A DNA stretch of 45,747 nt from Candidatus Obscuribacterales bacterium (GTDB lineage Bacteria; Cyanobacteriota; Vampirovibrionia; Obscuribacterales; Obscuribacteraceae). A program made the translations under genes and the position numbers. Position 1 is the stretch's first letter; the number at the start of each line of letters is the position of its first letter. Of the stretch, positions 41,354 through 45,747 are shown piece after piece. The notes beneath the pieces are model-generated. The model was not told the DNA's origin. It worked only from the letters and a program-made list of their open reading frames with translations, and made no database searches. The stretch spans positions 1 to 45,747 of the forward strand of contig JAGVKB010000152.1 of the NCBI GenBank assembly GCA_020050835.1, read 5' to 3'.

Positions 41354-44152
41354 ATGTCTCTCAAGATCGAGCCAGCGCTCTTACTTTCTTTGTGCATTTA
41401 CGTGACTCTGCAGTCACCGGCATGCTATGCGCAGGAAATTCTCTGGAAGACCTTCTTCGAATCGGGCGAGGCGGCCCTCAAGCGGGCAGACTTCGTCGAA
41501 GCTGAGAAACAATTTGAGTCGGCAGTCAAGGATGCTGAATTCATGCCGAAGAAAGATCCTCGTCTACTGCGCAGTTTGAGAAAGCTGGCGGAAGTCTATG
41601 ATGAGCAGGGAAAGTACTCGCAGGCCGAGCCACTCTTGCTCAGAGTTGTTGATTGGGATGCCAAGCTGCCTGGCAAGGAGCAATGCAGTCTGGCCACTGA
41701 CCTAAACAGTTTGGCTATGGTCTACACGCATGAGGGGAAGTATGGCGAAGCAGAGCCGCTTTATAAGCGGGCTTTGTCAATATGGGAAAAGGCGCTGGGC
41801 TCGGAGAATCCTAATGTTGCCTCCGTTTTCAGCAACCTTGCGATGCTTCATATGAATCAGGGTGATTACAAGGAAGCGGAGCGATTGCTGAAAAGCTCAC
41901 TTACGGTCTACGAAAAGGCCAAAGGCGATTCGGACCCGCTGGTGGCGCGTGGATTGGATAACTTGGCGAAGCTCTACTTTCTGGAAGGAAAGTATTCTGA
42001 AGCTGAGGCTCTCTACAAAAGAGCTTTGACAATCAAGGTGAAATCGCTCGGACCGGTCAATGTCGAGGTCGCTGCTACATTGACGAAGCTCGGACAACTC
42101 TATGAGCAGCAAGGGCGGAGCGCGGAGTCCGAGCCGCTGCTTAAGCGAGCGCTGGCTATTACTGAGCAGGTTGCCGGACCCAATAGCCCGCAGCTTGCCG
42201 AGCAGTTAGTAATCATGGCGGACCTGCTGGAAGCTGAAGGAAAAGGGGCGCAGGCGAAGGACCATTATCTGCGCGCTCTTCGCATCAGAGAAAAGGCATT
42301 GCCTGAAAATCATCCGAAACTTGCTGAGAGCTTGAGCCGCCTGGCTGATTCTTACTTCGATGATTTCGATTACTCCAGGGCTGAAGAGCTTTACAAGCGA
42401 GCCTTGAAGACTGGATTAGAAGGAGGTGGACGTGCCGATCTAAGTATGGCGAAAGATCTTAATGCGCTCGCGCTGCTTTACATTCATCAAGGGCAATATG
42501 AGCAGGCAAAGCCGCTTTACGAGAAGGCATTGGCGACGGTGCGCGAGAAGCTCGGACCTGATCATCCCGATGTCGCCGCTTGCCTAAACAACCTTGCATT
42601 CTTGTTTCAAAATCAAGCCAAGTTTGAGGAAGCAGAGCCACTCCTGAAGGAAGGGCTTGCGATTCGGCAAAAGGCGCTTGGTGCAGAACATCCTAGCGTC
42701 GCGCAAAATCTTGCCAATCTCGCCTCTCTTTACAGGTCTGAGGGACGCCTGGCTGATGCCGAGACTGAACTGAAGCGTTCTCTTGCTATCGCAGAAAAGG
42801 CTCTTGGTGCTGACCATAAAGATGTTGCGCAGATTCAAGGAGATCTTGCCGCAGTCTTGTGCGACCAGAAGAAGTACTTCGACGCCGAGATTCTATATCG
42901 CAAACTACTCGAGCGAGACGAAAAGGTGCTTGGGTATGAGAATCCCGCAGTTGCAGGTGACCTGGAGAACCTGGTAGCAGTCTTGGCAGCGCAAGGAAAG
43001 CAGGCTGAAGCTGAACCTTATCGCAAGCGGTCTGTCGCCATCAAAACGAGATTACCCGGCGGTAGATCCGTTCGAGCTGATTATGTCACGGAAGCTCAAA
43101 CAATCATCTCTGATGCAAAACACCGGCGGCCAGTCAAAGATAAGTGGGCTCTAGTAGTGGGAATCAGCAACTACAAGGATCCGGCGATTAACCTTAAGTA
43201 TGCAGCGAAGGATGCAACCGACTTCCGAAATTTTCTAGTGTCGGAAGCGCATTTTAAGCCCGATCACGTCAAGCTGCTCACAGATGGCAATGCTACTCGC
43301 GCCAATATCGTTGCTAGCCTCGGCGAAGGATGGCTGGGTCGCGTGGCGCATCAAGGTGATTTGATTGTCGTTTACGTCTCGACGCACGGAAGCGCATCTA
43401 AGCGCGAAGCCGGGGATACGAATTTCATCGTGCCGTACGAAGCCAATCTGGACAACCTGGTATTGACCGGTATTCCGATGCAGTGGTTAACGGTCGGATT
43501 GAAAGAGATGTTGCATTGCGACAGGCTGCTGGTGATTCTCGATGTCTGCCACAGTGGTGCCGCAGCCGGTGGCGGCGAGACGACGATGACTGAAAGCAAA
43601 ATAGAAACTTCGGTTGCAACATTGTCCGGGCAGAAGGGGTTGCAACGGATGCAAGGTGTCGATGCGGGTAAACTGCAGGCAGCATCGCAAGCGGAACCGG
43701 ATGATGAGGCGGCTAAGGGGCTGGAGAGGGCTTCCGGTGCCGATGCAGGCAAAAGCTCTGCCGGTTATGGCGAGATGGTTCTGGCATCGAGCGCTTCTGA
43801 TCAGGTTTCTTGGGAGTCAAAAGGTTATCCCAACAGTGTGTTCACCCGGCGGTTGATAGAGGGGTTGCGTTTGAACGGAGACCGGACGAGCTTGACCGAC
43901 GCTTACTTCTTCATGCGCGATCAAGTGGAAGAGGAAGTGCTTCGCGATCGGGCTCAGGTTCAAACCCCGGTTTTGATGAAACAACAGTGGAAAGGTGAAG
44001 ATGTAGTGCTGGGCCTTGTGCCTGACAGTGCTGCTGCCGACGATCAGTCCGCCCCTGCCGGCAAAGGCACTACAAGTGGTGCGCAGCCTCCAGCTGGTGC
44101 GGCCGGGAGCAAGATTGTTGCGCCGAAAGGCAAGCTGGAATTAAGTAAGTGA
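41354..44152 (+). CDS. secreted TPR protein with caspase-fold (C14-like) domain
   Basis: 932 aa from the ATG at 41354, chosen because it starts a signal peptide (MSLKIEPALLLSLCIYVTL.. ending CYA|Q) and has AAGGG just upstream; a GTG frame opens at 41321. About twelve kinesin-light-chain-type 42-residue TPR units fill residues 30-560 (for example AEPLYKRALSIWEKALG). The caspase-fold domain starts near residue 596 (KWALVVGISNYKD). The catalytic pair is present: His678 in YVSTHGS and Cys732 in LDVCHSG. A Gly/Ser/Ala-rich insert follows, then MVLASSASDQVSWES and FTRRLIEGL, the p10-like part. Likely an exported, TPR-docked metacaspase/orthocaspase-like protease. The gene at 44174 follows 21 bp downstream. 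Confidence 0.88.
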   Translation: MSLKIEPALLLSLCIYVTLQSPACYAQEILWKTFFESGEAALKRADFVEAEKQFESAVKDAEFMPKKDPRLLRSLRKLAEVYDEQGKYSQAEPLLLRVVDWDAKLPGKEQCSLATDLNSLAMVYTHEGKYGEAEPLYKRALSIWEKALGSENPNVASVFSNLAMLHMNQGDYKEAERLLKSSLTVYEKAKGDSDPLVARGLDNLAKLYFLEGKYSEAEALYKRALTIKVKSLGPVNVEVAATLTKLGQLYEQQGRSAESEPLLKRALAITEQVAGPNSPQLAEQLVIMADLLEAEGKGAQAKDHYLRALRIREKALPENHPKLAESLSRLADSYFDDFDYSRAEELYKRALKTGLEGGGRADLSMAKDLNALALLYIHQGQYEQAKPLYEKALATVREKLGPDHPDVAACLNNLAFLFQNQAKFEEAEPLLKEGLAIRQKALGAEHPSVAQNLANLASLYRSEGRLADAETELKRSLAIAEKALGADHKDVAQIQGDLAAVLCDQKKYFDAEILYRKLLERDEKVLGYENPAVAGDLENLVAVLAAQGKQAEAEPYRKRSVAIKTRLPGGRSVRADYVTEAQTIISDAKHRRPVKDKWALVVGISNYKDPAINLKYAAKDATDFRNFLVSEAHFKPDHVKLLTDGNATRANIVASLGEGWLGRVAHQGDLIVVYVSTHGSASKREAGDTNFIVPYEANLDNLVLTGIPMQWLTVGLKEMLHCDRLLVILDVCHSGAAAGGGETTMTESKIETSVATLSGQKGLQRMQGVDAGKLQAASQAEPDDEAAKGLERASGADAGKSSAGYGEMVLASSASDQVSWESKGYPNSVFTRRLIEGLRLNGDRTSLTDAYFFMRDQVEEEVLRDRAQVQTPVLMKQQWKGEDVVLGLVPDSAAADDQSAPAGKGTTSGAQPPAGAAGSKIVAPKGKLELSK

Positions 44153-44173
44153 TACGAAGGAGAGTCCAGAATC

Positions 44174-45229
44174 ATGTCATACAAACATTGCGAAGAGCAG
44201 GAAGCTATGTCTGTTTCAGTTAGGCGTCTTTCGCGCCGAATCAGTTGCGCGTTTCTTTCGGCGGTTTTAGTGATTGCGTCGGCAGCGGCTGTTTCTCCCG
44301 CGTCTGCCTGGTGGATCTTTCATAAGAAGAAATCAGCAGATGGTGAAGCGGCCAAGCTGGTTCGCAAGAAGCGAGAGCTGGCGGCGACAGCGGTTGGACT
44401 CATTGCCGGAAATCCGCCGGCGCTTTTTTGGAAACCTTCCGGTCAACCGAAAGCAGCCCTGCTCTGCTTGCACGAATTAGGACTCTACAACGGAGTCTTT
44501 GACGATCTGGGCAAGCGCATGTCGTCCCAGGGTGTCGCTGTCTACGCGATTGATTTGCGTGGCTTTGGTGCCTGGAGAGATGTGAAGGGTGCAGAAGGCC
44601 GGATGGATCTGGACAAAACTCTTGCTGACGTAAAGGGTTCAGTTGAGGTCATTCACAAACTGAATCCGGACGTGCCTGTTTTTGTCTTAGGTGAAGCGAT
44701 GGGCGGAGCGCTCGCTTTGAAGGCCGCATCGACTTTCCCACAGTTGATTCAAGGAGCGATTTCGGCAGCACCGGGCGGTGAACATTACAAGACGGCAAAG
44801 AACTACATGGCGGTCGCTGGCAAGATAATGGCCGGCGGTCCAAATGGCGATTCCGGAATGGCTGAAGACCTGATGGAGATGGCTACACCTAAAAAAGAGT
44901 TGCGAGAGGCGTTCCAGTCAGACGAGATGGTTCGGTTAGATCTCAAGCCGCGCGAGTTGATGGACTGTCAGTTCTTCATGTACAAGACCAAGAGATTCGC
45001 TCACGATATTAAGAACACTCCGGTTCTAATCGTTCATGGCAAGAATGATGGTGAGTCCAGGGCGGAAGGCTCGACCAGGGTGTATGAGAAGCTGGCGACC
45101 AAGGACAAGAAAATGCTCACAGTCGATGATGGCGATCATTATGTGTTTGAAGACACGAAGGTGAGCGACAAGGCGATGGACAGTACGCTTGCCTGGATCG
45201 ATGAGCACTTGAAGCCGGCGATCAAGTAA
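44174..45229 (+). CDS. secreted alpha/beta hydrolase-fold protein, nucleophile substituted
   Basis: 351 aa. AAGGAG at 44157-44162 precedes the ATG by 11 nt; a second ATG at 44207 (AGGA upstream) is an equally good start. A signal peptide ends near SPASAWW. The fold is of the monoglyceride-lipase/lysophospholipase type: ALLCLHELGLYNGVF, VYAIDLRGFGAW. The nucleophile elbow reads VLGEAMGGAL, so residue 175 is Ala (GCG) where active enzymes have Ser (GESMGG). Asp292 (HGKNDGES) and His322 (DGDHYVF) are in place. Probably not an ordinary serine hydrolase. It follows the caspase-fold gene by 21 bp and should share its transcript. Confidence 0.8.
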   Translation: MSYKHCEEQEAMSVSVRRLSRRISCAFLSAVLVIASAAAVSPASAWWIFHKKKSADGEAAKLVRKKRELAATAVGLIAGNPPALFWKPSGQPKAALLCLHELGLYNGVFDDLGKRMSSQGVAVYAIDLRGFGAWRDVKGAEGRMDLDKTLADVKGSVEVIHKLNPDVPVFVLGEAMGGALALKAASTFPQLIQGAISAAPGGEHYKTAKNYMAVAGKIMAGGPNGDSGMAEDLMEMATPKKELREAFQSDEMVRLDLKPRELMDCQFFMYKTKRFAHDIKNTPVLIVHGKNDGESRAEGSTRVYEKLATKDKKMLTVDDGDHYVFEDTKVSDKAMDSTLAWIDEHLKPAIK

Positions 45230-45323: not shown

Positions 45324-45747
45324 TTAGCGAATGGCAGCAGCTCTTATCTCTAGCTTGTCAGATTCTTCCGTGCGATTCATTTTGCGCAAGAGGGCCGCAT
45401 AGTCTCTCAAGCAGGCTGCCACGGACGGATCTTGCGCTCCGTGAGCGCTTTCAACGCTGGCCAGCGCCTGCTTGTAATAGCTCTCCGCATCAGCTAACTT
45501 TCCTTCCTGGCTATAGAGGAAAGCCAGACGATTAAGCAGGTCGGCGGTTTCGGCGTCATTGTTGCGAAACTGTTTCTTTGCCAATTCGAGCGCTTCTTTA
45601 TATGTGATCTCCGCTTGAGCGAGATTGCCCATCTGTTCAAAGACAGAGCCCAGAAGCGTTCTCGTTTTAATGACAAGCAGATTGCTGCTGCCATAGAACC
45701 CGTCGTAAATGGCCAGCGCGCGTTTGATGAGCGGCTCGGCTTCAGAG
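45324..45747 (-). CDS. TPR-repeat protein, 3' part only
   Basis: The frame runs through the right end of the window, so the gene start lies outside; the ATG at 45632 is internal, since upstream codons continue the TPR pattern (AEPLIKRALAIYD). Visible residues form at least three TPR units (LAQAEITYKEALELAKK, LADAESYYKQALASVES) of the kinesin-light-chain type, like those of the caspase-fold protein at 41354. The gene ends in KLEIRAAAIR. It converges on the hydrolase gene. Cellular location and role unknown. Confidence 0.75.
   Translation of the reverse strand, partial: SEAEPLIKRALAIYDGFYGSSNLLVIKTRTLLGSVFEQMGNLAQAEITYKEALELAKKQFRNNDAETADLLNRLAFLYSQEGKLADAESYYKQALASVESAHGAQDPSVAACLRDYAALLRKMNRTEESDKLEIRAAAIR

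Follow-up and report, generated by a model that had tools for sequence, protein, structure and literature searches.

Here we describe a two-gene locus in which a putatively exported caspase-fold protein with a long tetratricopeptide repeat (TPR) array is encoded next to an alpha/beta-hydrolase-fold protein that has lost its serine nucleophile. The locus lies in a 45,747-nucleotide stretch from Candidatus Obscuribacterales bacterium (assembly GCA_020050835.1, contig JAGVKB010000152.1), referred to below as the window, which spans the whole of contig C81 in a genome of 7.0 Mb. The Obscuribacterales are Melainabacteria, relatives of the cyanobacteria that do not photosynthesise. Because the gene neighbourhood is conserved and no ortholog of the hydrolase has the GESMGG nucleophile motif, a functional link between the protease, with its intact catalytic dyad, and the serine-less hydrolase fold is well supported. 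We read the two genes as a module in which the hydrolase fold, no longer hydrolytic, serves the exported caspase as a dedicated partner that regulates it or senses a ligand, and put the chance that this is correct at about even. The preliminary description of this DNA had proposed a regulator, substrate or binding-partner relation. The link itself stands, and neither of the two findings that the description named as refuting it was made; the evidence does not single out one of these relations. The two genes are as follows.

41354..44152, + strand: TPR-orthocaspase, putatively exported, 932 amino acids (Pfam TPR_12 at 6e-97 and Peptidase_C14 at 5e-20; signal-peptide-like N-terminus after ATG 41354)
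44174..45229, + strand: alpha/beta-hydrolase-fold protein without a nucleophile, putatively exported, 351 amino acids (Pfam, AlphaFold2 and Foldseek)

The caspase stop codon (44150-44152) is followed by 21 bp that include GGAG, and then by the hydrolase ATG at 44174 on the same strand. An alternative caspase start at GTG 41321 would give a protein of 943 amino acids and is less likely than ATG 41354. The choice of start codon and the signal peptides rest on visual inspection and hydrophobicity rather than on a dedicated predictor.

Orthologs were sought in 50 genomes of the window's family, and 25 hydrolase members were found, including that of the window. The 24 further orthologs, each from a different genome, are spread over 12 additional genera at 51-64% identity, with a clear gap to the paralogs, which reach 45% at most. 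A survey of gene neighbourhoods, suggested in the preliminary description, bore out the pairing. The TPR-caspase lies directly upstream of the hydrolase on the same strand at 24 of 25 loci, which span 13 genera, with a spacing of -47 to +132 bp for the open reading frames (ORFs) as called. In the exception, locus L033, three genes stand between the two. No other family recurs beside the pair in more than two genera across the 25 loci, and such a hydrolase adjoins none of the caspase paralogs examined, whether their genomes carry the pair or not.

A tree of 62 caspase domains groups all the paired caspases, 25 in number, in a single clade (support 100/99), which also holds an extra, long-branched copy from the window genome (L088). 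A caspase of this clade is present in every one of the 25 hydrolase-bearing genomes. Among the 25 family genomes that have no hydrolase, eight have no caspase at E<=1e-50, and in the other 17 the best caspase falls outside the paired clade. The caspase and hydrolase trees have their main subclades in common. The match in presence and absence, together with the single clades, therefore appears to reflect one origin of the module within the family, after which it was kept or lost as a unit. Searches of three sister-family genomes and of the other genomes among the 289 of the class did not recover the pair. Elsewhere in 84,980 species, two narrow peptide patterns, which a distant analogue could escape, recovered only a broken remnant (L137; PLZS01000057.1, 4213-6282). 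The remnant retains a TPR part and a caspase domain that is interrupted by an internal gap and a frameshift; of the hydrolase, the C-terminal part alone is left. Such a locus is a product of either joint decay or misassembly.

The features of the hydrolase-fold partner that bear on its activity are listed here.

44174..44308, + strand: putative signal peptide, ending ...SPASA (read from the sequence; a hydrophobic N-terminal stretch in 25 of 25 orthologs)
44474..44476, + strand: Glu101, replacing the Gly of the oxyanion-hole HG (Glu in 25 of 25 orthologs, Gly in 13 of 13 paralogs)
44696..44698, + strand: Ala175, at the nucleophile position (Ala in 25 of 25 orthologs, Ser in 13 of 13 paralogs)
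45047..45049, + strand: Asp292, the kept triad acid (invariant across orthologs and paralogs)
45137..45139, + strand: His322, the kept triad histidine (invariant across orthologs and paralogs)

The partner belongs to Hydrolase_4 by Pfam (3.5e-33), and the profile matches all 25 members. AlphaFold2, run on a 25-row alignment, predicts a confident fold over most of residues 70-345, with an overall predicted local distance difference test score (pLDDT) of 82.6. In a Foldseek search with this model, the nearest solved structures are monoglyceride lipases (yeast, human and Mycobacterium; E ~1e-17). The partner shares the fold and the triad Asp and His with the monoglyceride lipase-like members of Hydrolase_4 (human MGLL, Mycobacterium Rv0183, yeast Yju3), but differs from them in having Ala for Ser and HE for HG in all 25 members and in its putative export. 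In an alignment with monoglyceride lipase, Glu101 falls on the Gly of the oxyanion-hole HG motif. Because Ala stands at the nucleophile of G-x-S-x-G throughout the group, the partner is a member of the fold and, by sequence, no serine hydrolase. With Ser replaced by Ala at 175 and HG by HE at 101, two parts of the serine mechanism have therefore been lost, and Asp292 and His322 are invariant.

The nucleophile motif of the window's partner reads Leu-Gly-Glu-Ala175-Met-Gly-Gly (GEAMGG), and GEAMGG is found in all 24 further orthologs. Since all of them share Ala175, the residue is not there by chance. GESMGG occurs in none of the orthologs and only in paralogs that do not lie beside a paired-type caspase. 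Ala175 is encoded by GCG, GCA, GCC and GCT among the 25 orthologs and Glu101 by GAA and GAG; because the codons are synonymous, conservation acts on the residues and not on the DNA. The 13 paralogs sampled come from the window genome and five others. Relative to them, the changes diagnostic of the orthologs are concentrated around the catalytic motifs (G101E, S175A, L294E, E321D and L323Y, and changes to H204, C265, Y270 and G293), and Phe267 is likewise invariant in the orthologs and different in the paralogs. When the two diagnostic columns are removed, the hydrolase tree places the 25 orthologs in one clade with 100/99 support and a long stem. The ratio of nonsynonymous to synonymous substitution rates (dN/dS) of the hydrolase is 0.01-0.06 in the pairs where it is estimable, and that of the caspase is slightly higher wherever both genes can be estimated. 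The history of the Ala group is one of remodelling followed by strong constraint, not of decay. A chance or decaying mutation of the Ser is ruled out by the uniform Ala, its four codons and the low dN/dS. The same residue in 24 other genomes rules out a sequencing error.

Several of the GESMGG paralogs in the window genome (L003, L004, L005 and L007) are long ORFs of 530-660 amino acids, and in L007 at least, the additional sequence resembles TPR-like repeats. A scan of viral contigs for GEAMGG codons gave 13 matches.

The features of the caspase are as follows.

41354..41431, + strand: putative signal peptide MSLKIEPALLLSLCIYVTLQSPACYA, with cleavage before QE (read from the sequence; hydrophobic N-termini in most full-length orthologs)
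41489..43033, + strand: TPR array, approximately residues 46-560 (eight TPR_12 stretches by Pfam)
43142..43975, + strand: caspase (Peptidase_C14) domain, residues 597-874 (Pfam; the nearest solved relatives are metacaspases)
43385..43387, + strand: catalytic His678 (invariant in 25 paired and 35 other caspases)
43547..43549, + strand: catalytic Cys732 (invariant in 25 paired and 35 other caspases)
43715..43729, + strand: K-G-L-E-R motif (K788-R792) in the p20/p10 linker, a candidate self-cleavage site (recurrence across the family caspases)

The Peptidase_C14 match is above the Pfam cut-off. Metacaspase-1 is the nearest solved sequence to the caspase domain, which has the caspase p20 fold with a His-Cys dyad. 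The protein resembles orthocaspases and type I metacaspases in this p20 dyad with its DxCH motif. It differs from them in its putative export, in the long N-terminal TPR array and in that its gene travels with a pseudo-hydrolase gene. Prokaryotic caspases with TPR fusions and possible signal peptides have already been catalogued (PMC3501461). The essentials of the preliminary description were all recovered: a caspase-fold protein with both His678 and Cys732, correctly numbered from ATG 41354; a signal-peptide-like start and a long TPR array; and, 21 bp downstream, a hydrolase with Ala at the nucleophile position, here Ala175.

K-x-[LIV]-x-R or a near variant of it is found in most caspases of the family, within an otherwise variable p20/p10 insert. 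It is common to paired and unpaired caspases alike, which rules it out as a mark of the paired clade. From its recurrence and place it is probably a self-processing site in the p20/p10 linker. Orthocaspases are reported to cleave after positively charged residues (PMC6426788). At residue 734, beside the catalytic Cys, most paired caspases read CHGG and nearly all unpaired ones CHSG; that of the window reads CHSG. TPR-caspases have expanded strongly in the family, with up to eight strong copies per genome (E<=1e-50). The window genome has five strong TPR-caspases plus weaker candidates (contigs C62, C51, C69 and C151), and two caspase genes stand in tandem on C69 (L090).

A minus-strand TPR ORF is convergent to the pair, with its start past the contig end and its stop at 45324. 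The second TPR gene of the preliminary description is thus real, but it is not conserved beside the pair in relatives. This rules it out as a third component, and we do not count it in the unit. Neither PADLOC nor NCBIfam assigns the pair to a known defence system. PADLOC returned a weak match to PDC-S39 and otherwise only its generic models for caspases and TPRs, and the NCBIfam match is below its cut-off. The latter is a weak match to caspase_w_EACC1, which, with the caspase domain itself, is the likeness to the EACC1-type caspase conflict systems. The differences are the score (71.3 bits against a cut-off of 140), the lack of a recurrent third gene at the loci, such as a linked NTPase or effector gene, and the putative export.

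The scheme that we favour starts from a monoglyceride lipase-like hydrolase. Once, at the base of the clade, this hydrolase lost its nucleophile (Ser to Ala); its oxyanion loop changed (Gly to Glu), as did the surroundings of the retained Asp and His, and it has been under strong purifying selection ever since. Both proteins would be exported to the cell envelope. The partner would no longer carry out serine-type ester hydrolysis; its remodelled pocket may bind a ligand, or the protein may present a surface. By acting on its neighbour, at either the TPR or the caspase part, it could switch or target proteolysis. The protease probably cuts after basic residues and would mature by cutting its own p20/p10 linker at K-x-[LIV]-x-R. 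We infer both the physical contact of caspase and partner and the direction of control.

Several observations weigh against a regulatory or sensing partner. The caspase domain and the partner were modelled with AlphaFold2 as one chain, for which the in-frame genes of the window were used with TGA read as Trp, solely as a modelling device. The result was two folded parts in no confident arrangement (predicted template modelling score, pTM, 0.49), from an alignment that was shallow and mostly unpaired. Asp292 and His322 are retained, and a pure binding protein does not need them. The hydrolase-fold partner has no known ligand. Finally, no hydrolase adjoins L088 (G000:C62, 6463-8961), which also belongs to the paired clade of caspases and may be a duplicate that has been freed.

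The nearest working analogue of the partner, and it is offered as an analogy, is ABHD5 (CGI-58). ABHD5 has no serine nucleophile and no hydrolase activity, yet it activates the lipase ATGL (PMC5314347). Like the partner, it is an alpha/beta hydrolase fold without the nucleophile, a close paralog of it keeps the serine, and it is highly conserved (PMC5314347). The partner has the same combination of a lost nucleophile, a conserved fold and strong constraint. It differs in that ABHD5 is eukaryotic and works with a lipase, not a protease, and no orthology is claimed. In the partner His322 is followed by Y-V-F-E-D (45137-45154), which may be compared with the HYVYAD motif of ABHD5, perhaps through chance or convergence. 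The HYVYAD motif contains a functionally important Asp (PMC5314347).

A parallel for sensing comes from plant receptors, to which homology of the partner is claimed at the superfamily level only. The pocket of an alpha/beta hydrolase serves perception in GID1. It does so too in KAI2 (PMC8837635). Perception by such pockets in GID1, D14 and KAI2 would parallel the proposed sensor, although D14 and KAI2 keep their Ser. A bolder form of the regulatory reading, which we hold tentatively and consider doubtful, is an envelope receptor-protease, in which the former lipase pocket would be a non-hydrolytic sensor of an outside signal (lipid-like or hormone-like) and would directly gate the exported caspase.

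Three other explanations were weighed against a regulatory or sensing partner. The partner may still be an enzyme that works by non-serine chemistry (as a lyase, a decarboxylase, an oxygenase or with a displaced nucleophile), with the caspase in the same pathway. The Asp292-His322 dyad would then act with Glu101, His204, Cys265, Tyr270, Glu294, Asp321 or Tyr323. Cofactor-free dioxygenases and lyases of the alpha/beta-hydrolase fold exist that rely on His and not on an acyl-enzyme. The invariant Asp and His fit this explanation, as do the very low dN/dS and the catalytic surroundings, which were exchanged for a new invariant polar set and not relaxed. Ordinary hydrolysis, however, is made less likely by an acidic oxyanion-loop residue and by the missing nucleophile; no cofactor or substrate is known, and the close link to a protease does not suggest a pathway. 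On balance we regard such an enzyme as unlikely.

Somewhat less probable again is that the partner is a dedicated substrate, and that the caspase cuts the basic linker before the folded domain to release it from the membrane or envelope. The orthocaspase MaOC1 cleaves an antitoxin encoded by the adjoining gene (PMC7935541), and the cleavage after basic residues described for orthocaspases (PMC6426788) would suit R67, which ends the disordered basic linker and is at least 90% conserved in the orthologs. Several paralogs away from caspases, however, are basic in roughly that position too (RRGNAPC). R67, the only candidate basic cleavage site in the partner, is therefore not specific to it, and the linker is no evidence for cleavage of the partner. 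In addition, L055 and L056 are without the site, and release by cleavage explains neither why the loss of Ser is fixed nor why new residues surround the active site. The least probable of these explanations is that the genes are co-transcribed only, so that the products share a compartment or a condition and do not act on each other. The separation of the pair by three genes at L033 is in keeping with this, as is the failure of the fused-chain model, with its shallow and mostly unpaired alignment, to predict an interface. Shared transcription fits less well with the absence of any other neighbour kept beside the pair, with a hydrolase whose presence and absence track the caspase clade in 50 genomes, and with the common main subclades of the two trees.

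No published description of an exported caspase with a dedicated pseudo-hydrolase partner was found in the open-licence literature. To our knowledge, bacterial caspase homologs are numerous, few of them have a known regulator or substrate, and the exported ones have received little attention. The putatively exported caspases described here, a single set of orthologs, are strictly coupled to one partner, in which the loss of an enzymatic function is fixed and under selection. A hydrolase fold that is kept beside a caspase after losing its catalytic serine points to a former enzyme that may now serve the protease as a sensor or control partner. The hydrolase-fold partner is thus a concrete candidate for a caspase regulator, with one origin in one family of Obscuribacterales. 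If the pair is indeed an envelope receptor-protease, extracellular chemistry would be read out in these bacteria as regulated proteolysis.

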